A DNA stretch of 64,000 nt from contig NZ_WTYZ01000001.1 of NCBI RefSeq assembly GCF_009827455.1, positions 868,001 through 932,000 of the forward strand. The letters are read 5' to 3'. Positions within the stretch are counted from its first letter, which is position 1, and every line of letters starts with the position of its first letter. Shown piece after piece: positions 30,939 through 50,975 of the stretch. The notes below the pieces were generated by a model, which worked only from the letters and a program-made list of their open reading frames with translations, was not told where the DNA came from and did no database searches. This DNA comes from Pontixanthobacter aestiaquae. Lineage in GTDB: Bacteria; Pseudomonadota; Alphaproteobacteria; Sphingomonadales; Sphingomonadaceae. Made by a program: the position numbers and the translations under genes.

Positions 30939-33017
30939 ATGGCGTCTGCGCGTTCAGTAAGTTTCATCCAGCGCGGCTGGCGCAATGTGCGCGAGGCCGG
31001 CACAAGGCGGCTGGGCCTGACCATGCTGCTGGTGGTGCTTGCGCTGATCGTCGCTAGGTTTGGCTGGTCAGTACCGATCGTCAACCAGGCCGAGACCGGC
31101 CTTTATGATTTCCGCGCCTACCAAACCGCCAGCATGCAAGCGGTCGAGCAGGATCCGCGTATCATCATGGTCGTTTATGACGAGCAGACGCTGATCAAAG
31201 CGCGCAAACGCTCACCGCTCGATCGGGGGATGCTGGCCGCAGCATTGCGCAATCTCGACAAGCTTGGCGTCAAATCCATCGGTATCGATATTCTGTTCGA
31301 TCAACCGCAAGATGAAGATGACGAGTTGGTCGAAACGCTGCGTAATATGCAGACGCCGGTCTCGGTCGCTTATGTGCTGCAAGAAGCGAATGAAGGCGAC
31401 ATCAAATATGAGCAGCAGCTCTATCTCGAAGAGTTTCTCGCCCAGTTGGAGGGCAGCAATGCGGTTCCCGCAAGCATACAGCTTGATAATGCATTCGATG
31501 TTACCCGCCGGTGGCCACAGCCCGATGAGCGTTTGCCGCCAACGCTGACCCGATCGATGCTGGTTGGAGCAGGCGAGGCGGACAAATCACTACCGGCATA
31601 TGCCGGAGCGATCCGTTACCGCCTCTCGTCGCGCGATGGTCAGAACGACACCATCGAAAGCGGTCAGGAGGCTGTTGCCGAAACGCTTTTCCCGATAATT
31701 CCGATCGATTCGCTTGCGGATGAAGAGGTTTTTGCCATTCCCGCAGTGATCGAAGAATATCGGCCTCTGTTCGAAGGTAAATATATTCTGATTGGCGGCG
31801 ATCTGGTGGATTTTGACCGCGTGCCAACCAGCCTGTCAGACGGGACAGGCTTCGATCCTCCCGGCCTTCAGGTGCATGCCGAAATGTTGGCGCAGATGCT
31901 TGATGGCGCCAGTCTGTCCAAGCCGTTGTCCGTTACCCTGTGGATGCTGGCCATTCTGGTCATTGCGATGGCGGTGCTGACCGGCTTACTCGAATGGGGC
32001 AGCTGGCAAATCTATGTGTTGCTCGGCTTGCAATTCGTTGTGATGTTGGGCGCGCCTTTTGTGATGCATTTCCAGGGCGCTGACACTTACGGCCTTCCTG
32101 CGGTTGGCTGGCTCGCCGGTTGGGCAATAGCGTTCATGGCAGTGACCACGGCCGCTCGGGCCGCAGGCGCGGTGCAGCGTAATTTCGCGCAAGGGGCGCT
32201 AGGCAAATATCTTCCGCGAGAAATGGCCGCGGAGATCATCGAAAACCCCGAGCTTCTAGCGCTGCATGGCGAGAAGAAGGAAATTTATGTCCTTTTCAGC
32301 GATCTGGAGGGTTTCACCAAGATGAGCCACGCCGTCTCGCCCGAAATGGTCGCGAAACTGCTCAATCGCTATCTCGAAATGCTGAGCCAGGTGGTGCTCG
32401 ACCATGGCGGGGTAATCGATAAATTTGTTGGCGATGCGGTGGTGGCCTTCTGGGGTGCGCCAATTGCCAAGCCCGACGATGCAGAGCGCGCGGCGAAGGC
32501 GGGTTATGCGATCTGGCAGGCAGGTGAGGCGTTTCGTCACGAAGTCGCAGCCATGGACCCAGCTCTGCCCAAAATCGGCAAGACCCGCGTTGGCCTGCAC
32601 TATGGAGAGGCGGTTGTCGGCAATTTCGGCGGCGATACGCGAATCCAATATACTGCGTTGGGTGACAGTATGAACACTGCCGCGCGGCTTGAGGCGGCAA
32701 ACAAAGCGCTCGGTTCCAGCGTTATGGCAAGCCGCGAATTTGCGGAACGTTCGGGCCTCGATTGGTGGCGGCCAATGGGCCGTGTGGTGCTGCGAGGGCG
32801 GGCGCAACCGGTCGATATATTGGAGCCTGCACCGGACTTTCCTGCAGCAGATCGGGCAAAAATGTACGAAGCCGTCACACTGTCGGAAACTCACAAGACC
32901 AAGGCGGTCAGCGTGGTAAAAGGCCTCATCCGGAGCCATCCAGATGACACTGCGCTGGAAAACCTGCTACACCGGATGAAGAATTTGAACGAGGAGGGAG
33001 CCTATGTTCTCGGTTAG
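30939..33017 (+). CDS. CHASE2-domain class III adenylate cyclase
   Basis: A 692-residue membrane receptor. An N-terminal TM helix (about 27-45) is followed by a periplasmic CHASE2 sensor (about 50-325: YDFRAYQTASMQ, IGIDILFDQPQDEDDELV, GKYILIGGDLVDFDRVPTS, GLQVHAEMLAQMLDG), three TM helices (about 335-420) and a class III cyclase domain (about 440-620). Metal-binding Asp residues are in LFSDLEGFTKMS and DKFVGDAVVAFWG; the Asn/Arg pair is in GDSMNTAARLE. The Lys in IDKFVGD and Asp in TALGDSMN favour ATP as substrate. GGAGGGGAGG precedes ATG 30939; GTG 30936 is possible. It probably makes cAMP in response to a periplasmic signal. Confidence 0.92.
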   Translation: MASARSVSFIQRGWRNVREAGTRRLGLTMLLVVLALIVARFGWSVPIVNQAETGLYDFRAYQTASMQAVEQDPRIIMVVYDEQTLIKARKRSPLDRGMLAAALRNLDKLGVKSIGIDILFDQPQDEDDELVETLRNMQTPVSVAYVLQEANEGDIKYEQQLYLEEFLAQLEGSNAVPASIQLDNAFDVTRRWPQPDERLPPTLTRSMLVGAGEADKSLPAYAGAIRYRLSSRDGQNDTIESGQEAVAETLFPIIPIDSLADEEVFAIPAVIEEYRPLFEGKYILIGGDLVDFDRVPTSLSDGTGFDPPGLQVHAEMLAQMLDGASLSKPLSVTLWMLAILVIAMAVLTGLLEWGSWQIYVLLGLQFVVMLGAPFVMHFQGADTYGLPAVGWLAGWAIAFMAVTTAARAAGAVQRNFAQGALGKYLPREMAAEIIENPELLALHGEKKEIYVLFSDLEGFTKMSHAVSPEMVAKLLNRYLEMLSQVVLDHGGVIDKFVGDAVVAFWGAPIAKPDDAERAAKAGYAIWQAGEAFRHEVAAMDPALPKIGKTRVGLHYGEAVVGNFGGDTRIQYTALGDSMNTAARLEAANKALGSSVMASREFAERSGLDWWRPMGRVVLRGRAQPVDILEPAPDFPAADRAKMYEAVTLSETHKTKAVSVVKGLIRSHPDDTALENLLHRMKNLNEEGAYVLG

Positions 33018-33720
33018 ACCGCTAATGATTGCCGCCGCGCTGGGATGCGCTGCTCTGGTAGCGCCGATTGCCGTGCAAGCGGGCGTCGTCATCAAATCCA
33101 GTGGCCCATCTGCCGGCAAATATCCGGTCGGGATGAAGCTGAGCGATAGCGGGCGGATCACGCTCAAAACCGGCGACTCCGTCACCATTCTCGCAAATGG
33201 CGGCACGCGCGTGATCAGCGGCGCAGGCACGCACCGTGTTGCCGAGCGCGGCAAGAGCAACCGTACGGCCATCGCAGCTTTGACGCGCCGCCGTGCGGCT
33301 GGACAAGTGCGCACCGGGGCAACGCGTGGTGATCCACCCCCGGCATCGCTGACCAGTCCGAACCTTTGGTGGGTCGATGTCTCCAAGTCCGGCACCATGT
33401 GCGTGGCGGATATGTCCGCCGTGCAAATGTGGCGTCCTGGGCGAGATCAGGCATCAACCTATGTCATTGCGAGCGCTGAGTCGGCCGAACATGTTCATGT
33501 GACATTTCTTGAAGAAGAAATGGTCACCGCATGGGATAGCAAGAGGCTGCCGCTGACACAGGGTGCGACCTATTCGATCACCGGTCCGGGCGGATCCCCT
33601 TCGACGATTACATTTACCCAAATGGATGAAGTGCCTGAGGATTTGGACGATCTTACGGTGGCCTTGTTGGGTAAGGGCTGCACCACTCAAGTTGATCTTC
33701 TGGCGACTGCTTTGATGTGA
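33004..33720 (+). CDS. Exported FecR-like small protein
   Basis: A 238-residue protein with a signal peptide (MFSVRPLMIAAALGCAALVAP, cleavage expected after AVQA). It has a beta-rich segment of the FecR type (KLSDSGRITLKTGDSVTILANGG, written in pieces, then RVISGAGTH). The C-terminal half carries two Cys (GTMCVADM and KGCTTQVD) that may pair. Small FecR-like proteins commonly accompany CHASE2 cyclases and may present or shield the periplasmic signal (inference). The start overlaps the cyclase gene by 14 bases with GGAGGGAGCC as ribosome site. Confidence 0.7.
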   Translation: MFSVRPLMIAAALGCAALVAPIAVQAGVVIKSSGPSAGKYPVGMKLSDSGRITLKTGDSVTILANGGTRVISGAGTHRVAERGKSNRTAIAALTRRRAAGQVRTGATRGDPPPASLTSPNLWWVDVSKSGTMCVADMSAVQMWRPGRDQASTYVIASAESAEHVHVTFLEEEMVTAWDSKRLPLTQGATYSITGPGGSPSTITFTQMDEVPEDLDDLTVALLGKGCTTQVDLLATALM

Positions 33721-33807
33721 TCAGGGTGTGCGGGCAAGCGGGATGAGAAATTCCCGCTTGCAGCAAAGGGACCAAGTCGTAGGGTGCCGTCTTAGGGGAG
33801 GTGGTTC

Positions 33808-35184
33808 GTGATACGAATCCGGGGAAAATTGATTGCGATAGCCGGCGTGCCATTATTGGCCGCTACGGCATTCCTCTCCGTGGGCAGTTCCCCTACCGAC
33901 GCACAAACCCCCGGCAATGGCCAATATGAAGGCGTGGCAACTTGCGCAGGCTCGACTTGCCATGGCCGCGCCGAAGGCAATGGCGAAGTTGTTCGCCAGG
34001 ATGAAATCGCGAGCTGGCAAGAACCCTCTTCTTCTACCGGAGCGCATAGCCGTGCCTATGCTGCGCTCGCGTCTCCGCGTGGTCGCCAAATCGCCGCAAG
34101 CATGGGTATCGGCCCCGCGACTTCTGCGCCGCAATGCCTCGGCTGTCATGCGACTTATGTCCCAAAATCGAAGCAGGGCGCGCGTTTTCAGGTTTCCGAT
34201 GGTGTTGGCTGCGAAACGTGCCACGGCGCATCGTCCAGTTGGCTTGCGGTTCACTATGCCGCACCCGCGACACATCAATCGAATGTCGCTGCCGGCCTCA
34301 CTCCGCTGGAGCGACCGCAAACACGCGCCCGGGTTTGCCTCGATTGCCACTTCGGCAGCGCGGATGGAAACCAGTTTGTCACACATACAATGATGGCCGC
34401 GGGTCACCCGCGCGTTGTGTTCGAACTTGATCTGTTTTCGGCGCTGCAACAGCACCATGACGAGGACGCCGATTATGTGAACCGCAAGGGCAAGGCCGAT
34501 AGCGTCCGCCTATGGGCTGTCGGTCAAGCCGAAGCTGTTCGCCGTTCTACCGATCTGTTTGCGCGTGAAGAGTACGGCACGCAGGGCGTGTTCCCCGAAT
34601 ATTATTTTTACGATTGCCATTCCTGTCACCGCGCGATCACCGATGGCCCGCAGCGCAAGCTGACATTCGAGACCAATCCGGGCCGCCCGATCCCCTTCGG
34701 TATGGCACCCTATAATGATGAGAATATCATCATGCTGTCAGCTGTATCGCGGGCGCTAGCACCGGGCCGCGCCGCTGCGTTCGATAAAGCGAGCAAGGAC
34801 TTCCACCGCGCAATGGGACAAGGGCGCGGAGCCGCAGTGCAGGCTGCGCAAACGCTTCGCGGAGAAGCGGCGGCTTTGTCGAATAGTCTCGCTGGGCGCG
34901 GCTATTCAGGCAATGACGCCTTTACGGTCGTACAGGCAATTTCGGACCGCACAACAAGCCCGCGTTTCACTGACTATGCCGGATCGGCGCAGGCGGTGAT
35001 GGCGGTCGATACACTGCTTAACGCCATGGTTCGCGACGGGCGGATCACGACCGGCGCAGCAGCGGGCATTCGCGCCAATATCAACCGCGCTTATAGCGCC
35101 GTGCGCAGCCCCGGCACATACAGCCCAACCCAATTCCGCGAGGCCTTCGGTCAAGCGACGCGCGCGATAGGAGCATTGCGATAA
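33808..35184 (+). CDS. Exported multiheme cytochrome c (five heme sites, one CX4CH)
   Basis: A 458-residue protein with a signal peptide, cleaved near SSPTDAQT. Heme-attachment motifs: C46AGSTCH (a CX4CH form), C110LGCH, C135ETCH, C177LDCH and C270HSCH. The segment around the first motif (VATCAGSTCHGRAEGNG, later GAHSRAYAAL) resembles the cytochrome c554/c-prime-like multiheme family. The C-terminal 180 residues lack hemes and look helical. It would be a periplasmic electron carrier. GTG 33808 is the start, with GGGGAGGTGG upstream. Its stop overlaps the next ATG (TAATG). Confidence 0.87.
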   Translation: MIRIRGKLIAIAGVPLLAATAFLSVGSSPTDAQTPGNGQYEGVATCAGSTCHGRAEGNGEVVRQDEIASWQEPSSSTGAHSRAYAALASPRGRQIAASMGIGPATSAPQCLGCHATYVPKSKQGARFQVSDGVGCETCHGASSSWLAVHYAAPATHQSNVAAGLTPLERPQTRARVCLDCHFGSADGNQFVTHTMMAAGHPRVVFELDLFSALQQHHDEDADYVNRKGKADSVRLWAVGQAEAVRRSTDLFAREEYGTQGVFPEYYFYDCHSCHRAITDGPQRKLTFETNPGRPIPFGMAPYNDENIIMLSAVSRALAPGRAAAFDKASKDFHRAMGQGRGAAVQAAQTLRGEAAALSNSLAGRGYSGNDAFTVVQAISDRTTSPRFTDYAGSAQAVMAVDTLLNAMVRDGRITTGAAAGIRANINRAYSAVRSPGTYSPTQFREAFGQATRAIGALR

Positions 35185-37172
35185 TGGCGCGTAAGATCGG
35201 CACCTATTGGTGTTTGGCTGGCGCACTCGCACTGGCGGCATGTGGTGGCGGCGATAGCGGCCAGAACGCACCGCCAACGGGCGGTACACCAGCGCCATCA
35301 CCCACACCACCAGCGCAGGGCCGATTGTTCGCTGATCCCGCAGCAGAGTTTCTTAGCGTCGGTGAAGTCCAGCAGATCATGGCGCAGGCCATTGGTGAAG
35401 CGCAGGCGCGTGGGCTTCCGTCGACTATCGCGGTAACCGACCGGGTGGGCAATGTGCTGGGCGTGTTCGCCATGACCGGCGCGCCCGCGGTGACGACACT
35501 GAGCAGCGAGACCATTGGCGGCACAACGACCATGCCCATCGGCCTGCAGGGCGCGGATGTCCCGTCGACGACTGCAGCCATCGCAAAAGCGATTACGGGT
35601 GCCTATCTCTCGAGTGGCGGCAATGCCTTCTCCACTCGAACAGCCAGCCAGATTGTACAGGAACATTTTCCGCCAGCACCGACTACGGTTGGGCTGGAAA
35701 GCGGGCCTTTGTTCGGCGTGCAGTTCAGCCAATTGCCGTGCTCTGATCTCAATGCGCGCTTCACCGGCGGCGGTGCGGGCGCATTTATCGGACCCAAACG
35801 ATCCCCGCTGGGTCTTGCGGCTGATCCGGGCGGATTCCCGATTTATAAGAATGGTGTTGTTGTTGGCGGTATCGGGATTGCGGGTGACGGCGATTACGGC
35901 TTCGACACCAATATTCTCGACCGTGATGTTGATGATGAGGAAGCGATTGCTTTAGCAGGCATTCAAGGCTTTGCCCCGCCAGTAGAGATCGCGGCGGACC
36001 GGATTACTGTCGACGGCACCAGTCTGCGCTTCACCGACATGACTGTCAGCGATCTGTCGCCCCTGCAAACCAGCTTTGGGGCGGTGAATGGCCCGGCTGG
36101 CGGCATCGTCGCAGTCACAGGTTATAGCAATGGCGTCATCCAGCAGGGGGTAGCCTACGGCACCGAAGCCTCAGGCATTCGTCCAAGCACAGCTGCTGAA
36201 TTCACCAATCAGGATGCCTATGTCCTGACCAATGGCGCGGGGGCAGGGCGCTTCCCGATCCGTGCCGGTACGGATGCGGCAAGTGTGGCCCAGCCGCTCA
36301 GCGCCGCTGAATCGCGCGCGATCTTGGAAGAGGCGTTCGCCGTCCTTTCCCGCTCCCGCGCGCAAATTCGCCGACCCCTCGACAGCCGGATGCAGGCGAC
36401 GGTCAGTCTGGTCGATACGCATGGGCAAGTGCTCGGTATTGTCCGTTCGCCCGATGGCCCGATTTTCGGCACCGACGTCAGCTTGCAAAAAGCGCGCACG
36501 GCTGCGTTCTTCTCCAATGCCGTTGCCGCTCAGCAATTGCTGGGTACGCCAGTTTTGGCAGGCTTCGATGTGTCGGCCTACGTGCCGCGCGTGCGCAATT
36601 TCCTGAATGACGCAAACGCTTTGACGGGAACATTCGCCTTTGCCGATCGCTCGGGCGGGAATCTGTCGCGGCCTTACTTCCCCGATGGTGAAGTTGGCCC
36701 GACACCGGGGCCGCTCTCGGTAGAAAACCCAAACACATTCAGCCCCTTTGCTGTGGGACTGCAGAGCGATCTGATCGCGGTGAACATCGTGCAGCATCTC
36801 GGCTTTGTGCAGGGTGCAAATCCCGACACAGCAAACGAGTGTACCTTTGTGCCGAATGGGCCAGGCGGACGGAAGCGGATCGCCAATGGGATCCAGATAT
36901 TTCCCGGCTCGGTCCCCGTGTATCGCGGTAATCAACTGGTCGGCGGGATCGGCGTTTCGGGTGATGGGATTGATCAGGATGACATGGTCAGCTTCCTAGG
37001 GCTGCACAATGCAGGCCAGCGCATCGGCGGGATCAGCAATGCGCCTGCCGCAATCCGCGCAGACCGGATCGTGGTGAACATCAATGGTGGATCGGTCCGC
37101 CTGCGTTACGTCAATTGCCCCTTCGCGCCCTTCCTTGACGATCCCGCGCAGAATGTGTGCGAGGGGTTGTAA
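35184..37172 (+). CDS. Lipoprotein with two GlcG/HbpS-type heme-binding-like domains
   Basis: A 662-residue lipoprotein (lipobox LAAC, acylated Cys20; Pro/Thr-rich linker after). Two related domains follow, at about 50-300 and 370-650. Each begins with a helix and a strand pair (GLPSTIAVTDRVGNVLGVF; MQATVSLVDTHGQVLGIV) and has a later Gly-rich turn (VVVGGIGIAGDGD; QLVGGIGVSGDGI). This is the DUF336/GlcG/HbpS pattern, whose members bind heme or Fe-related ligands in some cases. Each domain also has Cys residues near its end that could pair. It may insert or protect heme in the neighbouring cytochromes, or act as redox sensor (inference). Confidence 0.78.
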   Translation: MARKIGTYWCLAGALALAACGGGDSGQNAPPTGGTPAPSPTPPAQGRLFADPAAEFLSVGEVQQIMAQAIGEAQARGLPSTIAVTDRVGNVLGVFAMTGAPAVTTLSSETIGGTTTMPIGLQGADVPSTTAAIAKAITGAYLSSGGNAFSTRTASQIVQEHFPPAPTTVGLESGPLFGVQFSQLPCSDLNARFTGGGAGAFIGPKRSPLGLAADPGGFPIYKNGVVVGGIGIAGDGDYGFDTNILDRDVDDEEAIALAGIQGFAPPVEIAADRITVDGTSLRFTDMTVSDLSPLQTSFGAVNGPAGGIVAVTGYSNGVIQQGVAYGTEASGIRPSTAAEFTNQDAYVLTNGAGAGRFPIRAGTDAASVAQPLSAAESRAILEEAFAVLSRSRAQIRRPLDSRMQATVSLVDTHGQVLGIVRSPDGPIFGTDVSLQKARTAAFFSNAVAAQQLLGTPVLAGFDVSAYVPRVRNFLNDANALTGTFAFADRSGGNLSRPYFPDGEVGPTPGPLSVENPNTFSPFAVGLQSDLIAVNIVQHLGFVQGANPDTANECTFVPNGPGGRKRIANGIQIFPGSVPVYRGNQLVGGIGVSGDGIDQDDMVSFLGLHNAGQRIGGISNAPAAIRADRIVVNINGGSVRLRYVNCPFAPFLDDPAQNVCEGL

Positions 37173-39035
37173 GTGAGCGTCGCTTTCGCCCTTCCCTTGA
37201 TTTTGCAGGCTACACAGCCCGCAGAAACGCGGCAGGTACCGCATAAGGCCGAACCGGATGAAATCACGACGGAGCAGGTCGAAGTCGAACCACCGGAGCC
37301 GCCTCCAGTGGACAACGAGTCCATTGATGGCCGCCGTCGCCCCGGTGTGACGGGCGAACTGCCCGAGAAGATCGACCAGACCAATGAAGGCGCTTTCCGC
37401 GCGCCTCCTCCTGAAGCTTTTCCGGCAGATCAGCTACCGATCCCCGACCGCTGGCGGTTGATTGAATCGCTCGGGCTGGTGAAAGAAAAATGGTGGGATC
37501 CCTATAACCAGAACACCTATAAAGGTGATCGCCCGATCAATCGGGACAAGGTTCCATGGTTGCCGATCAACGGCGATGATTGGTTCTTCGTCGCCAATGC
37601 GATCAGCGACACCGTGGTTGAGCCGCGCACCTTCCCGATTCCGGTGGGCGTTCAGACGACAGAAGATCCAGATCGCCTAGACGTGTTCGGCAATGAAGGC
37701 AGTCTGGTTCTGTCGCAAACTTTCCTGACCGGCTTTGCGCTGCTCAAAGGTAATACTGCGTATAAGCCGCCGGATGTTGAATACCGCGCGACTCTGGCGT
37801 TCAACATCAACCATGTCGATGTGCCCGAGAAACGCGTGCTGTTTGTCGAGCCGAGCAATGGCAGCAGCCGGACGGACTATTTCGTTGGCGTGCAGGAGTT
37901 GTTTTTCGACTATCACATCCGCAATACGTCTGACCGGTATGATTTCGACAGCTTCCGTATCGGTATCCAGCCGTTTCAGGCGGATTTTCGCGGCTTCCTG
38001 TTTCAGGATCAGCAGCTTGGCCTGCGCTTCTTCGGGACGCGTGATAACAACCGGTTCCAGTATAATGTCGCGGCGTTCTGGCGGCTGGAGAAAGACACCA
38101 ATAGCGGGCTGAATGCGGTCACCCAGACGCCGCGCGATGACTTCCTGTTTATCGCCAATGCGTATCGGCAGGATTTCCTGATCCCGGCGCTGACCAGCCA
38201 GATTACTGTCGCCTACAATCGCAATCGCGAAGCCGACGACATCCAGATCGACGACAATGGCTTCCCTGTTCGTCCGGCTTTGCTCGGCACGCTGCGCGGG
38301 CGCGAATATGATGCGTTCTATGTCGGCTATAATGCTGATGGCCGCGTGGGCCGGATCAATATCACCGCCAGCGCCTATGGTGTGTTTGGCGAGGACCGGA
38401 ACAGCTTTTTCACCGACCGCCCCGCTGATATCCGCGCCTTCTTTGCAGCGGCAGAACTAAGTTACGACCGCGATTGGGCCCGCTTCCGCCTATCGGGTGC
38501 CTATGCCAGCGGCGATGACGATCCCTATGACGATGTCGAGGGCGGCTATGATGCAGTATTCGAGAATCCGATCTTTGCGGGTGCCGATACCTCCTACTGG
38601 ATACGCCAGACGATACCCTTTGCCGGTGGCGGGCGTGCAGTTTCGGTCAATAATCGCAACGGACTATTGAACTCGCTGCGTCCCTCCAAAGAGCAGGGCC
38701 AGTCGAACTTTAACAATCCCGGCCTCGTGCTTGTCGGCGCTGGCGCGGATTTCGATCTGACGCCCGAGTTTCGTCTCTCGGCCAATGCCAATCATCTGTG
38801 GTTCGAGAACACTTCCTCGCTGGAAGCTTTGCGGAATGAGGGCAGCATTCCCAAGGAGATTGGCTTCGATCTTTCTGCTGCTGCAATCTGGCGGCCGAGC
38901 GCGATACAGAACGTTGTGTTCCGCCTCTCCGGCGCGGCGCTGATATCCGGCAAAGGCTTCGATGATCTGTTCGACAATCTGGGCAATACCGGAACCTACT
39001 ATTCCGTGCTCGCTAATGTGATCTTGACCTACTGA
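37173..39035 (+). CDS. Outer-membrane beta-barrel (porin-like) of the multiheme cluster
   Basis: A 620-residue protein starting at GTG 37173, right after the previous stop, with GAGGGG as ribosome site. A short hydrophobic N terminus (MSVAFALPLILQATQP) is the probable signal. Residues 20-100 are Pro/Glu-rich, then come about 500 residues of alternating hydrophobic strands and polar loops with many aromatic residues (LSQTFLTGFALL, FFVGVQ-like YFVGVQELFFDYHI, VGRINITASAYGVFG). The last residues ANVILTY end in an aromatic residue, as in BAM-assembled barrels. No sugar- or TonB-specific plug is seen. Pairing with the decaheme gene next door (TGATG overlap) suggests a porin-cytochrome partnership. 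Confidence 0.82.
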   Translation: MSVAFALPLILQATQPAETRQVPHKAEPDEITTEQVEVEPPEPPPVDNESIDGRRRPGVTGELPEKIDQTNEGAFRAPPPEAFPADQLPIPDRWRLIESLGLVKEKWWDPYNQNTYKGDRPINRDKVPWLPINGDDWFFVANAISDTVVEPRTFPIPVGVQTTEDPDRLDVFGNEGSLVLSQTFLTGFALLKGNTAYKPPDVEYRATLAFNINHVDVPEKRVLFVEPSNGSSRTDYFVGVQELFFDYHIRNTSDRYDFDSFRIGIQPFQADFRGFLFQDQQLGLRFFGTRDNNRFQYNVAAFWRLEKDTNSGLNAVTQTPRDDFLFIANAYRQDFLIPALTSQITVAYNRNREADDIQIDDNGFPVRPALLGTLRGREYDAFYVGYNADGRVGRINITASAYGVFGEDRNSFFTDRPADIRAFFAAAELSYDRDWARFRLSGAYASGDDDPYDDVEGGYDAVFENPIFAGADTSYWIRQTIPFAGGGRAVSVNNRNGLLNSLRPSKEQGQSNFNNPGLVLVGAGADFDLTPEFRLSANANHLWFENTSSLEALRNEGSIPKEIGFDLSAAAIWRPSAIQNVVFRLSGAALISGKGFDDLFDNLGNTGTYYSVLANVILTY

Positions 39036-43108: not shown

Positions 43109-43125
43109 CGCTGCGTCATTTTGTG

Positions 43126-43168
43126 AAGGCTTGATGCGAAGGTTTGCTCTCCTCCCGGATCAAGCCTT
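43126..43168. repeat. 10-bp perfect inverted repeat between convergent genes
   Basis: AAGGCTTGAT (43126-43135) and ATCAAGCCTT (43159-43168) face each other over a 23-base loop. It lies between the decaheme gene and the nuclease gene and overlaps the last codons of the nuclease. It may end transcription in one or both directions; there is no strong T-run. Confidence 0.4.
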
Positions 43169-43870
43169 TGATCTGCGATAGCCCGCTCTTTGGGCTTCAG
43201 ACTCGGTGCAGAACAATTCTTCGGGTCTCGTCTGATCATAATAGGGGCGGCCAGGAAGGTGGTAAATCCATTGTCCCCTTCGATTTCTGTTGCCTTTGAT
43301 CGCACAGCCGAACTTGTTCCGGTAGATCTGCTCGACAGGCGGGTTTTGCGGCCGAGTGGCGGGCGAGGGTGCTGTGGCAGTCGGCTCGGTAGTTTGAATA
43401 TTGGCTGTTCGCCAATCTGCCGGCGACTGGAATTCTGATGCCCACAGACCCATCTTATGCTTTTTCCTCAGTGCTTCCGCTTCGACATATGTCGCGGGAC
43501 TGTCCTTAACGGTAACCGCAAGCCCGGCCTCAATCATAGCCAGGCCTAGATCCAGACCATCACGGCTACATGTCGCGATTGCTTCACCATTACTGCCGAA
43601 CTGTAGTGCGCGACATTTAACTCGATGCCCTTGGGTCAATTCATCCAGAAGTTTTTTGGCTTCCTCACCGCATTTCCAATCGGCTCCTGCATCTGAGCAT
43701 GTTTGCGAATTTTCGGGCGCATCAATTCCGAAAAGGTGGATCTTTGTGCCAGAGAAGTCCAAGCTGTCACCATCGACTGCATTTGCAAGCCCTTGAGTTA
43801 CTTGCTCAGTGGCGGCAAGTGGAGCAGCGATCAGGAGCGCGGAAGAAAAAACAATACGAACAACAATCAT
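43160..43870 (-). CDS. Secreted thermonuclease-like protein with C-terminal sunset-type domain
   Basis: A 236-residue exported protein: a signal peptide ([20 protein letters not shown]), an SNase-like OB-fold domain (about 30-145; [32 protein letters not shown] and the [20 protein letters not shown] blocks) and a C-terminal region (about 185-236) with [21 protein letters not shown], then [15 protein letters not shown], the pattern of the so-called sunset domain that follows some nucleases. The catalytic Arg of staphylococcal nuclease in the first motif set is not clearly matched, so activity is uncertain. ATG 43870 follows GAGGTGC; a longer frame to 43942 would bury the signal peptide. Confidence 0.83.
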
Positions 43871-43925
43871 ATGCACCTCGTCGATTTCAGACGGAGCATG
43901 ACTGCTATTGGTTACTAAGAGGTAT

Positions 43926-44777
43926 CTACTCCCGCTCGGCAAACATCTCTTTGATCATACCTTGCAGGTTCGCATCATACTTAGCGAGTACTTGCCAGTC
44001 CCATACGCGTTCGTAGTGGGTGACCAACTCGCCATTTTCCCAGCGGTGGAGGGCGTAGGTCGGGGACTCGGTGGTGATCAGATCGCGGTTGTCGGGTGTT
44101 TCGGGATCAATCGGGCGAAGGTCCATCGCTACCAGCGGTGCGACCGACGGAGTAACGCTGAGCAGCTTACCTTCGACCGTGGCGTTGATCTGGCGGTGCA
44201 GATGGCCGCAATGGATTGCTCGGATCTGGTTATGGCCGCGGATCGCTTCGGCAAAGCGCAGCATCCATGGTTCGCCCGGGCCGGGGTCCATCCAGCCGAT
44301 GCCGGATACGACCGGCGGGTGGTGCATGAAGATCAACGTAGGCGTGTCAGGGTGCGCGTTAAGTTCTGCGCTTAACCATGCCGCGCGTTTCTCGCAGAAG
44401 GCGCCGCCATGCCGTCCGATCTCCAGCGTATCGAGCATCAAGATGCGCAGCCCGTCTTGTTCGACCGCATATTGGATAAAGCCATCCGCATCGACCGGCG
44501 TATCCGGGAAAGCGTGCAATAGCCCCTCGCGCGTATCGTGATTGCCGACAATCGAATAGACCGGCATCGGGCAGGCTTCGAGCAGGGCTGCGGTTTTCTC
44601 GAAACTGCCTGTGTCGCCGTGGTCGGTCAGATCGCCGGTTAGTACCAGCATATCGGCGTTATTAGGGCCATTGAGCAGTCGGTCGAGCGTGGCGCGGAAG
44701 CGAATTCGGTTTAGCTCCTCGGGCTTGGCTGCCGGGTCGAAGCCGATATGGATATCGGTCATCTGCGCTATCAGCAT
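43926..44777 (-). CDS. CpdA-like cyclic-nucleotide phosphodiesterase (class III)
   Basis: A 283-residue calcineurin-like phosphoesterase. All metal-site motifs are present: D8-x-H10 (MTDIHIG), D49 in [13 protein letters not shown] at 78-81, His in [11 protein letters not shown] and GHLHRQ. The pattern is that of CpdA-type 3',5'-cAMP phosphodiesterases, which lower intracellular cAMP with a Fe/Mn bimetal centre. It stands 38 bases downstream of the FHA-decaheme gene on the same strand, so it is probably co-transcribed with the cNMP-binding redox protein; the cyclase lies in the facing cluster. Substrate is inferred from family and context. Confidence 0.85.
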
Positions 44778-44815
44778 CGTGCCCCCTCCGAGATGTTGTG
44801 TCCCCCCAATGCGCG

Positions 44816-46579
44816 CTACTCCGGCTTCCGGCTCATCAGCGCGACTGTGTCTTGTGTGGGCGTTTTCTTCTCATCCGGCAAGTTTGCGCCTTTCGGATGG
44901 TAGGAGTGGCACATCGCACAGCTTGACGGCACTTCCGCCTGTTTCTCGTCCTGTCCCAGATGGCAATCGCGGCACACGGCGATACCCGGCAACAGCAAAT
45001 CCTCTGAAGTCTTGGATGTCTCGGCCTTGTGACACGTGCTGCATTCTTCCTGTTCATGCTCCTTGTGGTCGAACCAACCATTGAGCAGATAGTTTTCACG
45101 CAGATGCACCGGCATCACATCGGCTTTGCCATTGCGGGTCGTGGGGATGTGGCATTCTCCACAAACCCCGTCCTTGGCGAGTGCGCGGTTGATTGCGATG
45201 TAGGATCGCGCTGGCCGCCCGAAGTTCTGATAGTAAAGCCCGCCGCGCGCATACTCGCCCGGACGCTTGCGACCAGCGGGTGCTGCCGAGCGGCGCGGTG
45301 CGCGGTCCATTGCGCGCAGGTCGGCACGCATCTGGTCGATATCGCCATGGCGCAGCGAGCGGAACGTTGTGCCGACGCGGTCATAGACAAGGCTGTGACA
45401 GCTCTCGCAATCGTCCTCCATTTTGACCGGCAGGAAGCCTTCCTTGTCGGATGTTGGTGTGTGGCAATCGGCGCAGACCAGCGAATTACCATAACCTTGC
45501 TTGGCACCGATATTGCGCGCCATCCGGGCGACACCGCCGCGCGTGTTCATGTGCATTTCATGAGGGAATTTCAGGCCGTGTTGTTCTTGGGGCGTGTCGG
45601 CGAGCGATATCCGCGCGGTCTCTTCGCTGCCCAATTGCGGGTGGTAGATCGCCTTGAACTGCGGGTGGGCATCGCCAAAGTCGGCGGCATTCGCCAGCTT
45701 GGTATCGGTAAGCCGGGCATCCATCCCGTCATGGCATTCGGCGCAGAATTGCTGGGCGGTTGGTTCCATCCGGCCTGCGCCTTCGTGCTCGGTATGACAG
45801 GTGCTGCATGAGCCGGGCCCTTCCTTGCCGAACATGCCCGCGACTTTCCATTGGAACTCGTCTCCCGCCGACATTGGACCGCGTCCGGTAAGCTGACGGT
45901 CGATCTTGGCATGGTCGCCAATCGCCTCGTGGCAGGTCAGGCAAGTTTCATCGCGGACCGACTCAAATGGCTTCACGTGACAAGCCTCGCAATTGTCCTC
46001 CAGCCCGTGGTGGGCGAGGCTGAGCGCACCGGTGCTCCAGCTGGTATCCATCATTGTCTGACCGGTGCGGTCGTAATCGGGCTTTGCCGGATCACGGTTG
46101 AGGTGCGTGTAAATCGGCACGATCAGGAACGCGAACAGGATTATGCCAAGCCCGACCCATGCCATCGCGCGCTTGCTGGGCAGGGCGGAAGCGAGTGCGA
46201 AGCCTTTGACGTCGTCGACATCTTCGGAATGCTCCGCCGCCTTGCTAATGGTGATCGATGCCGGAGCATCGGGGTCGCGTGAAAAGGCTAAGCGGTAGCA
46301 CCCGAAACCAAGCTCGGCGCCCTTCGCGGGATCAAAGCTGGTCGAAGTCGTTGTCTTTCCGTCATGGGTAAAGCCGAGTGTGCCGGCCGCCTGTGCGAGA
46401 ATCGTCCCATCGTCCTGGCTGGTCAGCGTTGCGTGGTTCTGTTCCACCGCCAGATCGGGCAGGTGGATATCGCTTTCAGCCGCGCGCCCGATGGTCAGGC
46501 TGCTTTGATCCACTTCGCGGTCACGGACAATCTCGCGCCCGCTGGCGGTAAAATCGATGGTGCGGATCAGAAAAGTCAT
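44816..46579 (-). CDS. FHA-domain, single-TM, decaheme cytochrome c
   Basis: A 587-residue protein. Residues 1-105 are an FHA-like domain (SLTIGRAAESDIHLPDLAVEQNHATL); Gly-Arg and the final His are kept but the Ser of the usual S-R-x-H is replaced (E-Q-N-H), so phosphopeptide binding may be lost. One TM helix lies at about 138-158. The periplasmic remainder has ten CXXCH motifs: Cys197, 213, 258, 279, 369, 391, 473, 513, 536 and 554. It would take electrons from the membrane cytochrome b encoded just upstream and pass them into the periplasm, while the FHA domain senses a cytoplasmic state. ATG 46579 (GGGGCGGA upstream) is chosen over 46636. Confidence 0.9.
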   Translation of the reverse strand: MTFLIRTIDFTASGREIVRDREVDQSSLTIGRAAESDIHLPDLAVEQNHATLTSQDDGTILAQAAGTLGFTHDGKTTTSTSFDPAKGAELGFGCYRLAFSRDPDAPASITISKAAEHSEDVDDVKGFALASALPSKRAMAWVGLGIILFAFLIVPIYTHLNRDPAKPDYDRTGQTMMDTSWSTGALSLAHHGLEDNCEACHVKPFESVRDETCLTCHEAIGDHAKIDRQLTGRGPMSAGDEFQWKVAGMFGKEGPGSCSTCHTEHEGAGRMEPTAQQFCAECHDGMDARLTDTKLANAADFGDAHPQFKAIYHPQLGSEETARISLADTPQEQHGLKFPHEMHMNTRGGVARMARNIGAKQGYGNSLVCADCHTPTSDKEGFLPVKMEDDCESCHSLVYDRVGTTFRSLRHGDIDQMRADLRAMDRAPRRSAAPAGRKRPGEYARGGLYYQNFGRPARSYIAINRALAKDGVCGECHIPTTRNGKADVMPVHLRENYLLNGWFDHKEHEQEECSTCHKAETSKTSEDLLLPGIAVCRDCHLGQDEKQAEVPSSCAMCHSYHPKGANLPDEKKTPTQDTVALMSRKPE

Positions 46580-46589
46580 ATTCCGCCCC

Positions 46590-47450
46590 TCACCAATAAT
46601 AGAACACGCTGACGATATGCGCGGCAAGGGCAGCAATCAGCGCAATCGTTGCGGGTATATGGATGAACAGCCACACTTCGAGCAGCGCACGGTAGCGCAT
46701 GTGGCGGCGGATTTGGCCGAGCTGTGATTTGCGGCGCCCGAGCAGGGCCGCGACTTTTTCTTCCTTCTTGTTGATCGACCCGGGTGGAAAGGCGTGTTGC
46801 GCCCGGGCGGTGGCGCAGCGCGGATAAGTGCCGGTCAAGCGTGCCAGGAAACCCGCTTTGAACACGTCCTGTTTCAGCGCATCGATCACCGCATCTGCCT
46901 CGCTCCGGCCAAGCGGTTGTGCAGCAGTTTCCAATTGACGGTCGATAGCCGCCAGCGCTTCCACCATCTGACCGCGCGTCATCTCGCGCGCATTATTGCT
47001 GAGCGAGCGCGGCAGCGTCGCATAGACAGAAATGCCGTAAATGCCGGACACCACCACCAGCATCATCAACGCCCAGGCAAGCGTATGGACATTCCAGCCA
47101 AGCTGGAAGCCGGTGTGCATCGTTCCGATTACAATGAGCGCGAGGCCGAGATAGACATGCGCGCTGGTCCACGCCTTCAGGCTCCACCGGCCCGGGCTCA
47201 TATTGCGTTTTCGGATGCCCAACAGCGAGAGCCAAACGATCAGCAACGCCCCGATCGTGCCCAGCGTATAACCGTACCATGTTCCGCCATTATGGCGCGG
47301 TTCCACATCGACGAGGAAGTAAGAAACGATCACAATCAGGCACAAAACGACCGAGACTTTCAGCCAGCGCATTCGTTTGTGGCTGAGGAAGCTCTCATGA
47401 TCGGTATCGCGGCGCTGCTCGGCGCGTTCAAAGTTTGCGCTGGAGGCCAT
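46590..47450 (-). CDS. Membrane cytochrome b-type protein with two His pairs
   Basis: A 286-residue protein with five hydrophobic helices (about 30-47, 60-78, 95-112, 122-142 and 258-284). His98 and His112 in the third helix, and His264 and His278 in the last, are each 14 residues apart, the spacing that binds two b hemes across two helices in bc1- and ferric-reductase-like proteins. A charged cytoplasmic or periplasmic loop (about 150-250) separates the helices. It overlaps the FAD/cNMP/Fe-S gene upstream by one base (TGATG) and is followed 10 bases later by the decaheme gene. A transmembrane electron conduit between them is the natural reading. Confidence 0.85.
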   Translation of the reverse strand: MASSANFERAEQRRDTDHESFLSHKRMRWLKVSVVLCLIVIVSYFLVDVEPRHNGGTWYGYTLGTIGALLIVWLSLLGIRKRNMSPGRWSLKAWTSAHVYLGLALIVIGTMHTGFQLGWNVHTLAWALMMLVVVSGIYGISVYATLPRSLSNNAREMTRGQMVEALAAIDRQLETAAQPLGRSEADAVIDALKQDVFKAGFLARLTGTYPRCATARAQHAFPPGSINKKEEKVAALLGRRKSQLGQIRRHMRYRALLEVWLFIHIPATIALIAALAAHIVSVFYYW

Positions 47451-49903
47451 CAGTCGACATCCTCAGCCAATTTGGTGAAAGTCAGGAATTTTTCAGGCGC
47501 CACGCGAATTGCTGCGCCGGTTGGGCAAGCTCGCACGCAGGCCGGGCCGCCATCAATCCCTGCGCACATATCGCATTTAATCGCTTGCTTGGCCTGCTCG
47601 AGGCCTTTTTTGTCTGCGGTTTTTTTGCGCCAGCTATAGCTTGCCTCACCCGGACCGGGGCCTGCGCCAAATAGCAGCCATGACAGAAGCGACGGCTTCT
47701 TGGGCGGCTTGGCGTCCATCCGGATCACGCCATAGGGACAATTGCGCTGACAATTGCCGCATCCGATGCAGGTTTCGTCGATGAACACTTCGCCATCTGG
47801 GCCGCGCTTGATCGCGTTGGGCGGGCAATCGGCCATGCAATGCGGGTGCTCGCAGTGGCGGCACGATGTTGGGACATGAAGATGCGCGTATGTACGCCCA
47901 GCCTCGCGGTCGAGGCGGCTCAGGCCTTCATGGCTGTCGGCGCAGGCTTTCTCGCAATTGTCACAGCCGACGCACAGTGTTTCATCGATCAGCAGGACGT
48001 CGGTCGCCTCGCCAATGCCGTTATCGACGAGGAACTTGGCGGTTTCTGAATACATATCGACCGCGCTGCTGAAGCTTTCCTTGCGCTCTTCGACGAAGGA
48101 GTTGACCTGCCGCCGCGATGCCATGTCGCTGAGCGCGCGTTCGCGCAGTGCAGGGTTCTTCTCCATCAGACGCAGGAACGTGTCACCGGGTAATTTGACG
48201 ACTTCGGATTTGATTGCAGCTTTTACCGTGGCGGTACGTGGGCTGCCGTCGATGACCGCCATTTCGCCGAAATAGGAGCCTGCAGGCAGGTAGGAGAGGA
48301 AGATCGGTTTGCCGCCGAGGTTTTTCTCGACGATCATCGAGCCTTGCTGGATCACGAAGATGTCTTTGTCATCGCCGCCTTCTTCGACGACATTCTGGCC
48401 TGCGCGGATTTCGACCACTTCGGCGGCTTCAACCAGCTCGGAAACGTCCTCTTTGGTCAGGCCCGAGCCAAACATTTGCAGCAATTGCCGCTCAATAGTG
48501 ATGCGATTGACCGCGCGGCCAGCGCTCGGGACTGTTGCGATCAGTTTAAGAGCGGCGGTGCGTGAAAGTTCGAGCGTCACGGTTGGTTCGGCAGCGCGAA
48601 TAGTCGAGCCCCGGCGGCGACCGGAAATTAGGCCAACTTCGCCAAAAATGGAGCCTTGCTCGATCGGTACTGTGATGGAGCTATCGTCCGGATTGACCTC
48701 GACCAGCACTGACCCTTCGGCGATGCAGAACATCGATGATCCCGGATCATTGCGGACGAAAATCACATCATTACTGTCAAAGGCTGCAACATCGCTATCG
48801 AGCATTAGCTCACGCATTTGCAGCGGAGAGAGCTCGTTCAGGATTACGATATTCGCGCGGAATATCTCCAACCATTCATCGACGCTGCGGTTGCCCGGCA
48901 GCGCAGCAAATTTTTCGGCAAGAATGGGTTCATCCGCTGGCTTGAGATCGTGGTTCCCGTTCAGGAATTCGATCACGTCATAGCCCTGGTTCATGCAGTG
49001 CTTGATGAGCGGATATCCCGCTAACGCACCGATCACATGAATGCCGTTCTTTGTTGTCTCGAAGCTTGGCGTCAACTTGGGAAAGGCGCTGCGTTCTTCG
49101 CTGGTGAATTCAATCCCGCAGCCCTCAACGAAACCGCGTGGAGGCTGGGAGCCGGTCCGCGCGATAATTCGGTCGCATCTGATCGTTTCGGTGCCGTCAC
49201 GCGTTTCCAAGACCAGCTCGTTGTCGCGCACTTCGCTCGGGTTGGTTTCGCGGCGGACGGCAATGCGGCCCTCGCGCTCAGCTTCCTCCAGCAAGGCGAC
49301 ATTGGCGGGTTTGGCGCGAGCAAATTCAGCGCGCCGGTTGAGGATCGACACTGTGTTGCGCTGCGCCGGATCAGCGGCGAGGCCCAATGCGTTCTCGATC
49401 CCCGCATCGCCCGAACCGACAACCGTTATATGCTCGTCGAAATATTCACCTGGATCATCCAACTGATACTGGATCAAGGGCAGATCAGAACCGGGACAGC
49501 GCAGCTTGTTCGGGTTGCCTTGGGTGCCGATGGCCATAACCACGGCCTCGGCTTGAATAGTGTCGCCGCCTTTCAGCTCAATCGTAAAATTACCGGTCTC
49601 GCCAGTGATCGCGGTGACTTCGGAATTGAGCCGCACATTGACTTTGTGCTCTTCAATCTGGGCATCCCATGTGCCCAGAATATGTTCGCGCTTGCCAGCC
49701 TCGAAGTCGATGTCGCTGCGCAGCACCAGATTGCTGGGCGTCGCCATCACATGCTTGCCCTTCTGGTACTTGAAAATCGTATCGGACAGGTGATCGGTCT
49801 TCTCGATCAGGATATGCGGCATGCCCAGCTCGGCCGCACGCGCAGCCGCCGAGAGGCCCGCTGGCCCCGATCCGACAATCACTACGCGGTATTTCTCCGA
49901 CAT
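47450..49903 (-). CDS. Pyridine-nucleotide-type flavoprotein fused to two cNMP-binding domains and four [4Fe-4S] sites
   Basis: An 817-residue cytoplasmic protein. Residues 1-320 are a TrxB-like FAD/NAD(P) oxidoreductase (FAD motif VGSGPAG at 10-16, second dinucleotide motif VGSGDAG at 162-168) but without the CxxC of thioredoxin reductase. Residues 355-475 and 485-600 are cyclic-nucleotide-binding domains; the second has the canonical phosphate cassette FGEMAVIDGSPRTA with Arg556, the first is less typical. Residues 640-800 have four cysteine clusters (CVGCDNC, CRHCEHPHC, CIGCGNC, CDMCAGIDGGPAC), a HycB/DMSO-reductase-B-like ferredoxin. It would feed electrons from NAD(P)H to the cytochrome b under cAMP control. 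ATG 49903 is preferred over 49936. Confidence 0.92.
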   Translation of the reverse strand: MSEKYRVVIVGSGPAGLSAAARAAELGMPHILIEKTDHLSDTIFKYQKGKHVMATPSNLVLRSDIDFEAGKREHILGTWDAQIEEHKVNVRLNSEVTAITGETGNFTIELKGGDTIQAEAVVMAIGTQGNPNKLRCPGSDLPLIQYQLDDPGEYFDEHITVVGSGDAGIENALGLAADPAQRNTVSILNRRAEFARAKPANVALLEEAEREGRIAVRRETNPSEVRDNELVLETRDGTETIRCDRIIARTGSQPPRGFVEGCGIEFTSEERSAFPKLTPSFETTKNGIHVIGALAGYPLIKHCMNQGYDVIEFLNGNHDLKPADEPILAEKFAALPGNRSVDEWLEIFRANIVILNELSPLQMRELMLDSDVAAFDSNDVIFVRNDPGSSMFCIAEGSVLVEVNPDDSSITVPIEQGSIFGEVGLISGRRRGSTIRAAEPTVTLELSRTAALKLIATVPSAGRAVNRITIERQLLQMFGSGLTKEDVSELVEAAEVVEIRAGQNVVEEGGDDKDIFVIQQGSMIVEKNLGGKPIFLSYLPAGSYFGEMAVIDGSPRTATVKAAIKSEVVKLPGDTFLRLMEKNPALRERALSDMASRRQVNSFVEERKESFSSAVDMYSETAKFLVDNGIGEATDVLLIDETLCVGCDNCEKACADSHEGLSRLDREAGRTYAHLHVPTSCRHCEHPHCMADCPPNAIKRGPDGEVFIDETCIGCGNCQRNCPYGVIRMDAKPPKKPSLLSWLLFGAGPGPGEASYSWRKKTADKKGLEQAKQAIKCDMCAGIDGGPACVRACPTGAAIRVAPEKFLTFTKLAEDVD

Positions 49904-50018
49904 CCATCCCCCCGATGACAAGTGCGACCCTATCATCGTCCGGCTGCGATAATAGGCAAATCACGACAAATCACCAGTAACAATTGCCCGCTAAATTCCG
50001 CGCTGCTAGCCACCCGCA

Positions 50019-50975
50019 ATGACAGAGAAAACCGAATCCAGCGCGGCCGCCGAAACTTCCAGCGAAAGCGGCATGTCGCGCGTCAGCATCATTGTCCTGA
50101 TCGCAGCGCTCGTGTTGGCAGGCGGTGCGGTGGCGTATCGTATGCTGGCCGATGGCGCGGACCACACAGTTCCAGTGGTTGTGGAAGCAGCATTCCCTCC
50201 GACTATCGAGGCGCTGAAAACAGCTGCAGAGGCTGATCCGCTTAATCCCGGGCCATGGCAGGAACTTGGTTTCGCCTACTACCAAACAGAGCAATATGAA
50301 GAGGCGGCGCGCGCGTATCGTCAGGCTGTCGAAGGCGACAAGGAGAATGCGGTCCTGTGGTCATCGCTGGGTGAGGCGCGATTGATGGCAACTGACTCTT
50401 CTGAAATGCCCGCAAATGCGGTGAGTGCATTTGAGAAGGCTCTCGAACTTGACCCGACCGATGCCCGGGCGCGCTATTTTCTCGCGGTAAAGAAGGATCT
50501 GGCGAGGGATCACGAGGGGGCGATCACCGATTGGTTGGCACTGCTGGAAGATACCCCGCCGGGCGCGCCGTGGGAGAACAATCTGCGTCAGACTATCGAA
50601 CAGATCGGCAAAATCAACAATATTGAAGTGGCAGCGCGGATTGCCGCAGCGAACAAGCAGCGCCCCGCAGCGCCTCCCGCGCAAGCGCTCACTGCTGGCA
50701 ACGCGATACCCGGACCGAGCTGGGAGCAGATCGCTGCCGCCGGTGCGATTGCTCCGGGTGAGCAGCGCGATATGGCAGTGAGCATGGTCGAAAGCCTCGA
50801 TGCGAAGCTGCGCGCGAACCCGGCCAATCCTGATGGGTGGGTGATGCTTATGCGCAGCCGCATGACATTGGGGGAACCTGACAAAGCGAGCCAAGCGTTG
50901 AAAGATGCGATTGCGGGCAATCCCGGTGATGCGTCTCGGCTGCGCAAGGAAGCGGCCGCGCTTCGCATTGAATAG
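50019..50975 (+). CDS. Membrane-anchored TPR protein, CcmI/CycH-like
   Basis: A 318-residue protein with a TM helix at about 22-42, then TPR repeats (PLNPGPWQELGFAYYQTEQYEEAARAYRQAV in parts, AVLWSSLGEARL, AVSAFEKALELDPTDARARYFLA, DGWVMLMRSRMTLGEPDKA). The pattern resembles the TPR part of CcmI/CycH, which holds apocytochrome c for heme ligation in system I. It is divergent from the FAD/cNMP/Fe-S gene with a 115-base gap containing both promoters. In this context it probably helps mature or assemble the multiheme cytochromes. No other ccm gene is in the window, so NrfG-like or general assembly roles remain open. Confidence 0.75.
   Translation: MTEKTESSAAAETSSESGMSRVSIIVLIAALVLAGGAVAYRMLADGADHTVPVVVEAAFPPTIEALKTAAEADPLNPGPWQELGFAYYQTEQYEEAARAYRQAVEGDKENAVLWSSLGEARLMATDSSEMPANAVSAFEKALELDPTDARARYFLAVKKDLARDHEGAITDWLALLEDTPPGAPWENNLRQTIEQIGKINNIEVAARIAAANKQRPAAPPAQALTAGNAIPGPSWEQIAAAGAIAPGEQRDMAVSMVESLDAKLRANPANPDGWVMLMRSRMTLGEPDKASQALKDAIAGNPGDASRLRKEAAALRIE

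Follow-up and report, generated by a model that had tools for sequence, protein, structure and literature searches.

The window analysed here is a stretch of 64,000 nucleotides from the 2.87 Mb genome of Pontixanthobacter aestiaquae (NCBI RefSeq assembly GCF_009827455.1, contig NZ_WTYZ01000001.1, positions 868,001 to 932,000), whose nearest named protein relatives are likewise from Pontixanthobacter. It carries two tight gene clusters on opposite strands that together encode three multiheme cytochromes c, a flavoprotein with cyclic nucleotide monophosphate (cNMP)-binding domains, and putative enzymes for making and removing a cyclic nucleotide. The minus-strand cluster, which we call module A, comprises the flavoprotein, a di-heme cytochrome b, a decaheme cytochrome with an FHA domain and a phosphodiesterase. 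The plus-strand cluster consists of a nucleotide cyclase and module B, i.e. a pentaheme cytochrome, a lipoprotein with tandem HbpS-like stretches, an AlgE-like barrel and a decaheme cytochrome with an LVIVD repeat. The genome comparisons presented below give good support for modules A and B being one system.

The plus-strand cluster begins with a 693-residue protein (30936..33017) that combines a CHASE2 domain (84.6 bits) with a class III nucleotide cyclase domain (Guanylate_cyc, 54.4 bits), both above the Pfam cut-offs, and contains the motifs LFSDLEGFT (453), IDKFVGDA (494) and RIQYTALGDSMNTAAR (569), which we take to provide the catalytic metal-binding aspartates, the lysine and the asparagine/arginine pair. 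It is followed by a 238-residue protein (33004..33720) with a signal-like N-terminal helix and no Pfam match at E 0.1; in the 11 mapped relatives whose stretch extends as far as this cyclase, the two genes are always neighbours. Then come a C554-like pentaheme cytochrome c, predicted to be periplasmic (33808..35184), a predicted lipoprotein with an LAAC lipobox and two HbpS-like stretches (35184..37172), a predicted outer-membrane beta-barrel (37173..39035), and a decaheme cytochrome c of 1357 residues with a C-terminal LVIVD repeat (39035..43108). The ends of these open reading frames (ORFs) mostly overlap or abut (33004/33017, 35184/35184, 37172/37173, 39035/39035), with an 87-bp gap 5' of the pentaheme gene. 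Both cytochromes start with signal-like helices. The pentaheme protein has four CXXCH motifs and one CX4CH motif, an arrangement kept in 63 of 63 aligned rows, and the LVIVD decaheme has ten CXXCH motifs (ten motifs in 71 of 74 rows); this amounts to 458 residues for five hemes in the former and about 136 residues per heme (1357/10) in the latter.

In the minus-strand cluster, where the spacing is similarly tight, the flavoprotein gene (47450..49903) is followed by those for an inner-membrane di-heme cytochrome b (46590..47450), the FHA decaheme (44816..46579) and a CpdA/SpdA-like metallophosphoesterase that is likely a cyclic nucleotide phosphodiesterase (43926..44777). The flavoprotein consists of a FAD/NAD(P) part (Pyr_redox_3, 114 bits), two PF00027 cNMP-binding stretches (108 bits) and an Fe-S part with several 4Fe-4S domains, including PF13247 (42.9 bits). 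Sixteen cysteines in the Fe-S part are invariant in all 10 aligned rows, which would suffice for four Fe-S clusters. A thioredoxin-reductase role for this protein is not favoured, given that residues 1-320 contain no CXXC. The cytochrome b has the motif WX3HX13H at 94 and 260 and SGXXG at 135; H98 and H112 are present in 107 of 107 rows, and H264 and H278 in 105 (the remaining two have gaps). Its hydropathy profile has four clear helices and a weaker stretch, counted as the fifth, that holds the first WX3HX13H. No NCBIfam match was obtained for it at E 0.001, and PF28006, which is annotated on one of its relatives, was not among its matches in our local Pfam copy. The phosphodiesterase contains all of the metal motifs of CpdA-type enzymes (D-X-H, GD, GNHD, H and GHXH), and its best NCBIfam matches, SpdA (144.6 bits, cut-off 400) and CpdA (85.9 bits, cut-off 225), are both below the equivalog cut-offs.

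The FHA decaheme has ten CXXCH motifs (ten motifs in 102 of 108 rows) in 606 residues, i.e. 61 residues per heme when the whole ORF is counted, and one transmembrane helix C-terminal to the FHA domain, because of which its hemes are predicted to be periplasmic. FHA domains that bind phosphothreonine have a conserved GR and an S-R-x-H site. Across the 108 rows the arginine of that site is present in 102 and the histidine in 95; the serine position is alanine or glutamate in 53, and serine is not among the seven commonest residues there. Since the serine position is not kept, we do not favour a phosphothreonine switch acting through this domain, which may serve in docking rather than in phospho-binding.

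All parts that a first-pass annotation of the sequence had named were recovered in their places by ORF calls, Pfam and NCBIfam, and its inventory was sound: 5 + 10 + 10 heme-attachment motifs in two clusters, a cytochrome b with two histidine pairs, a flavoprotein with two cNMP-binding domains and four [4Fe-4S] sites, a CHASE2 cyclase, a CpdA-like phosphodiesterase, an outer-membrane barrel (as predicted by a structure model) and a CcmI-like TPR protein. It had overlooked the two HbpS-like stretches of the lipoprotein and the LVIVD match of the large decaheme.

The case for a single system comes from the distribution of the two modules among relatives. Our family sample held 119 genomes, including that of the window, drawn evenly from a larger group, in which we scored the flavoprotein at E <= 1e-100 and the LVIVD decaheme at E <= 1e-30. 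The former was found in 41 genomes and the latter in 42, and all 41 are among the 42 (Fisher p 3e-31, kinship ignored); the single discordant genome, G029, is 67% complete and broken into about 420 contigs. Gene order was mapped in 80 retrieved stretches, which cover the 40 carriers other than that of the window. In all 40 the flavoprotein gene adjoins the one for cytochrome b; the genes for cytochrome b and FHA decaheme are neighbours in 39 (contig ends interrupt G146), and those for FHA decaheme and phosphodiesterase in 38 (the exceptions being G061 and G102, in the latter of which the phosphodiesterase lies beside module B). Similarly, each pair of neighbours within module B is kept in 38 of 40, G023 and G147 being cut by contig ends. 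The distance between the modules varies far more: they are convergent and within 5.4 kb of one another in 19 relatives, on the same strand in one (G080), 19-25 kb apart in two, separated by 40 kb or more of the same contig in 11 and on different contigs in seven, although in G146, where the contig break falls inside the FHA gene, they are probably adjacent. Modules that are present together without being neighbours are best understood as one system.

One may also consider that two unrelated clusters merely share a neighbourhood, by chance or by inheritance, as might be suggested by their lying on opposite strands in the window and by the occurrence of module A without module B in some distant genomes. 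In an rpoB tree of 100 family genomes (G029 not included) the system is present in 38, and the labels for modules A and B agree in 100 of 100. To account for this distribution the tree requires no fewer than 31 gains or losses; well supported branches force 17 of these. The scatter equals that of shuffled labels (mean 30.5). The row nearest to the window (G001, 96% rpoB identity, 99% complete) is without both modules, while the cytochrome b was found in six of the seven other members of the genus that were searched (G002-G007, not G001). Shared ancestry alone is thus ruled out as the source of the co-occurrence, and the pattern can be explained by joint transfer or joint loss. Chance clustering is contradicted by the co-occurrence and by the tree, as well as by the single gene runs seen in other classes, and we regard it as extremely improbable.

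Outside the family, we searched 398 genomes of the phylum (flavoprotein E <= 1e-70, LVIVD decaheme E <= 1e-15), scoring at most two candidates per genome, so that some carriers may have been missed. The flavoprotein was found in 15 genomes, 11 of which also have the LVIVD decaheme; no genome has the latter alone, and the former alone was found in four (G149, G181, G297 and G298). In G504 the flavoprotein, cytochrome b, FHA decaheme, HbpS protein, barrel and LVIVD decaheme follow one another on one strand, and the same run is seen in many of the named loci, by which we mean the best 80 of at least 290 relatives. The titles of these loci are mainly from Gamma-, Beta- and Alphaproteobacteria, with one from Magnetococcales, and include Cognaticolwellia, Alcanivorax, Tahibacter, Dokdonella, Limnobacter and Oceanibacterium; the titles Klebsiella, Bordetella, Mycobacteriaceae and Thermoflexus, attached to metagenome-assembled genomes, probably reflect mislabelled bins. 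Several betaproteobacterial loci have a permuted order (FHA decaheme, HbpS, barrel, LVIVD decaheme, pentaheme, flavoprotein). A match to the LVIVD decaheme accompanies the flavoprotein in 47 of the 80. Among the remaining 33, one side or both are cut in 26, and seven (L160, L162, L185, L190, L191, L192 and L210) have no LVIVD decaheme despite about 10 kb on both sides, which indicates that module A can lack module B nearby. Independent occurrence of the two clusters in relatives, by which the first-pass annotation would have been refuted, is therefore not what the family shows: co-occurrence there is near perfect even without linkage, and the single gene runs elsewhere point the same way. In the phylum sample and in these seven loci module A also occurs without module B.

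With regard to the path of electrons, the most direct clue is that in G181 and G297, which share one genus code (g207), the flavoprotein and cytochrome b form a single reading frame. Such fusions were seen only in L126 (3052-6420; apparently the same record as the Magnetococcales locus L205) and in L129 (8750-12103), and perhaps represent one event. This natural fusion argues that the flavoprotein hands electrons to the cytochrome b, as had been proposed at first pass, and electrons likely pass from NAD(P)H to the cytochrome b and on to the decahemes. We somewhat favour a scheme in which modules A and B are one trans-envelope electron-transfer system that is gated by a cyclic nucleotide, with the cyclase and the phosphodiesterase controlling the ligand. 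In this scheme the cytoplasmic flavoprotein would take electrons from NAD(P)H into its FAD and [4Fe-4S] clusters and pass them to the inner-membrane cytochrome b, from which they would travel to the FHA-anchored periplasmic decaheme and then to the pentaheme protein. The latter would deliver them to an outer-membrane module made up of the HbpS lipoprotein, the AlgE-like barrel and the LVIVD decaheme, in which the LVIVD decaheme would be the last redox partner or close to the last. The two cNMP-binding domains, which lie between the flavin and Fe-S parts, would be the gate, and the ligand, most likely cyclic AMP (cAMP), would be made by the CHASE2 cyclase when it senses a signal in the periplasm, and the phosphodiesterase would remove it.

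The nearest described relatives of this system are two predicted clusters of He et al. 2017 (PMC5566968), PCC4 and PCC3, and no cNMP link was found in the part of that account available to us. PCC4, as described there, comprises a porin, multiheme proteins with 4, 5 and 10 hemes, and a five-helix inner-membrane protein that bears WX3HX13H twice as well as SGXXG; its Subgroup II has a PF13247 Fe-S gene upstream, and it is found in Alpha-, Gamma- and other bacteria (PMC5566968). The cytochrome b of the window has the signature of that inner-membrane protein and a PF13247 flavoprotein directly upstream, and the window likewise encodes a putative porin and periplasmic multiheme proteins that include a decaheme; the heme numbers differ, being 4, 5 and 10 there and 5, 10 and 10 here (PMC5566968). 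The terms FHA, LVIVD and cyclic do not occur in the main text of the paper, and one paper that cites it likens PCC4, in the portion available, to petB/petC-type partners. PCC3 shares the inner-membrane motifs, a porin and two multiheme proteins, with cytochromes of 22-39 residues per heme and low-complexity repeats, in contrast to about 136 (LVIVD decaheme) and 61 (FHA decaheme) here (PMC5566968). Since an Erythrobacter sp. is named among the PCC3 carriers in the same source, that cluster may be the system described here. Three named loci bear on this comparison: L160, L180 and L192 combine module A with two pentaheme-type proteins and a 5-heme protein, with no match to HbpS, barrel or LVIVD (L180 is cut after the cytochrome b). 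It is possible that these loci are themselves PCC4, and module A would then serve two different outer ends.

MtrCAB, MtoAB and PioAB likewise combine a barrel with multiheme proteins on its periplasmic and outer sides and receive their electrons from the inner membrane, although the barrel model here is AlgE-like and not MtrB-like. Mtr-type systems receive electrons from a quinol dehydrogenase such as CymA, in contrast to the NAD(P)H-type flavoprotein and cytochrome b found here. An MtrB-type barrel has 28 predicted strands (according to the part of PMC5877670 available), compared with 18 in our model. The same account describes the Geobacter cluster ExtHIJKLMNOPQS, which has a porin-like protein, cytochromes with 5, 10 and 12 hemes and an inner-membrane cytochrome b; it differs in having a Rieske protein (ExtO) and a bc-type cytochrome b (ExtP), and no flavoprotein or cNMP part appears in the portion available (PMC5877670). 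Pfam placed none of the cluster proteins of the window in a Rieske family. Flavo-Fe-S proteins of the AegA/YgfT type and YpdA reductases have Fe-S and FAD/NAD(P) domains in common with the flavoprotein, and to our knowledge have neither cNMP-binding domains nor a cytochrome b partner. A search of open-licence literature, judged mostly by titles and the openings of abstracts, found no description of such a cluster. Thus the earlier statement that no such system had been described was partly wrong, since PCC4 and perhaps PCC3 match part of it and the inner half was probably glimpsed by He et al.; it stands, as far as that literature goes, for the flavin/cNMP make-up, the LVIVD-HbpS outer half and the cyclase-phosphodiesterase link, none of which we found there.

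The same source supplies an argument against the outward direction of flow that we infer, since He et al. modelled PCC3 and PCC4, in the part available, as taking up electrons to the quinone pool (PMC5566968). By analogy, the system of the window may run inward, oxidising a donor (a metal ion or a reduced organic compound, soluble or solid) at the outer module and sending electrons to the cytochrome b and on to NAD(P)+ or quinones, a reading with which the titles Sideroxydans, Gallionella and Ferrovum on some named loci are in agreement. We nevertheless consider it unlikely, as the cytoplasmic partner is an NAD(P)H-type flavoprotein, even fused to the cytochrome b in some genomes, which suits outward flow or a reverse flow that requires energy.

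What happens at the outer membrane is less clear-cut. The barrel, which has no Pfam match, gave a structure model with 18 strands (mean predicted local distance difference test score, pLDDT, 71; predicted TM score, pTM, 0.70) whose best match is AlgE (E 1e-13, target TM 0.64, query TM 0.44); it also matches OprD-type channels, and MtrB is not among the best 50 of its 710 structure matches. A cytochrome may not fit inside a barrel of the AlgE type, which weighs against electrons leaving through it, and the outer-membrane exit suggested at first pass appears weaker than was claimed. It is conceivable instead that the LVIVD decaheme reduces a soluble substrate in the periplasm, that the barrel is the channel by which this substrate enters, and that no electrons cross the outer membrane. 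The LVIVD decaheme has no lipobox that we could find, its roughly 136 residues per heme would suit an enzyme, and it has a local similarity to ExtM, of a selenite/tellurite cluster (57 bits over 51 residues, cut-off 800). In addition, it is the most conserved part of the system, with a median identity to the named loci (L208 left out) of 57% (25 rows), followed by the barrel at 53% (34), HbpS at 50% (48), the flavoprotein at 48% (76), the cytochrome b at 38% (58), the pentaheme at 34% (27) and the FHA decaheme at 28% (55), a ranking that points to a specific enzyme and not just a conductor of electrons. The combination of HbpS lipoprotein, barrel and multiheme proteins, on the other hand, resembles porin-cytochrome clusters, and the structure model of the LVIVD decaheme (mean pLDDT 41) gives no usable fold; searches of PDB sequences with this protein, the barrel and the cytochrome b returned no matches. 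We regard the periplasmic reductase as a serious possibility, albeit somewhat doubtful.

That the chain is gated by a cyclic nucleotide is plausible from the sequences. In the two cNMP cassettes of the flavoprotein the phosphate-binding residues E433, R442 and R567 are present in 127 of 127 rows and E558 in 124, and the PDB sequence relatives of this part are mostly PKA/PKG regulatory domains. The phosphodiesterase is genetically linked to the flavoprotein, as described above, and the cyclase follows the system as well: a cyclase ortholog, defined as a full-length match with E < 1e-150, is present in 34 of 41 carriers and in two of 78 non-carriers (Fisher 2e-20), and any homologous cyclase (E <= 1e-20) in 41 of 41 and four of 78, respectively, G029 being one of the four. 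Among 17 supported, independent pairs from the tree, the ortholog tracks the system in 9.8 on average and runs opposite to it in none (median sign-test p 0.002). It lies within 25 kb of the pentaheme gene in 24 of the 33 ortholog carriers besides the window, and in four of the seven carriers without it (G009, G019, G061 and G102) a different protein with a cyclase domain is encoded no more than about 6.5 kb from one of the two modules. Outside the family, a near-whole match to the cyclase profile lies at most 4.1 kb from the flavoprotein in six of the 80 named loci, four gammaproteobacterial (cyclase upstream, same strand) and two betaproteobacterial. In one locus, L139 (Woeseiaceae), the cyclase, a TPR protein with a sub-threshold SlipAM match, a FecR protein and the whole system form one run. 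CHASE2 proteins are common (224 of 398 phylum genomes, 1-6 each); by a rough estimate with no computed control, assuming four per 4-Mb genome, about 0.7 would be expected in the 0.65 Mb that surround 80 flavoproteins to a distance of 4 kb. The genome from which the window comes also encodes a second CHASE2 cyclase-like protein at another site (G000:C1:2184460-2186403).

Several observations count against this part of the scheme. The top-scoring family of the phosphodiesterase is SpdA, which acts on 2',3'-cyclic nucleotides. The full-length cyclase ortholog is missing in seven of 41 carriers, and 7.2 of the 17 tree pairs show no cyclase difference. In 74 of the 80 named loci the retrieved stretch, which in many cases ends early, contains no full-length cyclase, and the phosphodiesterase is present in just one (L208, from the sphingomonad Parasphingopyxis) and was not seen beside the flavoprotein in the G504 or G512 stretches. 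The cyclase-phosphodiesterase pair may therefore be one lineage's means of supplying and removing the ligand. One may also consider an alternative in which the electron chain is as proposed, the cNMP domains have a structural role or a different ligand, and the cyclase and phosphodiesterase are regulatory neighbours acting through CRP-type transcription. Control of respiratory and outer-membrane cytochrome genes by cAMP-CRP in Shewanella is the topic of published papers, to judge from the parts available, and the missing orthologs just mentioned would be no surprise under such an arrangement. It seems rather unlikely to us, since the E/R cassette residues are kept in both cNMP domains and the phosphodiesterase gene belongs to the flavoprotein run in 38 of 40 relatives. 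The more specific proposal, that a second messenger (cAMP or a relative) from the periplasm-sensing CHASE2 cyclase binds the flavoprotein and opens flow through some 25 c hemes, with the local phosphodiesterase as off switch, so that control would be post-translational and PKA-like rather than by CRP transcription, is a tentative one to which we give not quite an even chance. Of the cAMP link drawn at first pass, the invariant residues and the genetic association with both enzymes thus stand, and gating itself is a conjecture from them.

Divergent from the flavoprotein gene, on the plus strand, lies a gene for a CcmI/CycH-like TPR protein (50019..50975; PF23914 CcmH/CycH above cut-off), a presumed cytochrome c maturation factor that neighbours the flavoprotein in 39 of 40 mapped relatives. 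In G019 CcmF adjoins the CcmI-like protein beside the flavoprotein operon (Pfam), and both are in keeping with a demand for heme c. By eye, G400 has a CcmF-like start at the same place as G019 (the stretches concerned are L030 11300-15528 and L122 6610-8682). A gene for an Nmad3 (nucleotide modification associated domain 3) protein (50988-51722) adjoins the CcmI-like gene, and one is near it in G022, G023, G025, G078 and G095 as well. Downstream of the phosphodiesterase gene and overlapping it, a staphylococcal-nuclease-like gene with a C-terminal 'sunset' domain (43160-43942; NF051437) gave no tblastn match at E 1e-8 in the 80 mapped stretches, and we treat it as a passenger rather than as a part of the system.

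In conclusion, the locus represents a real and widespread variant of trans-envelope cytochrome systems. When a profile was made from residues 1-1000 of the LVIVD decaheme, at least 7850 of 7998 scored database clusters matched it, and each of the best 120 has an LVIVD domain; with such breadth the locus appears to represent a redox system that is widely distributed in Proteobacteria and has no assigned function. Should its cNMP domains act as a gate, electron transfer through the chain would be under the direct control of a second messenger. Erythrobacter relatives are aerobes, and the system offers a handle on why multiheme cytochromes occur in them.

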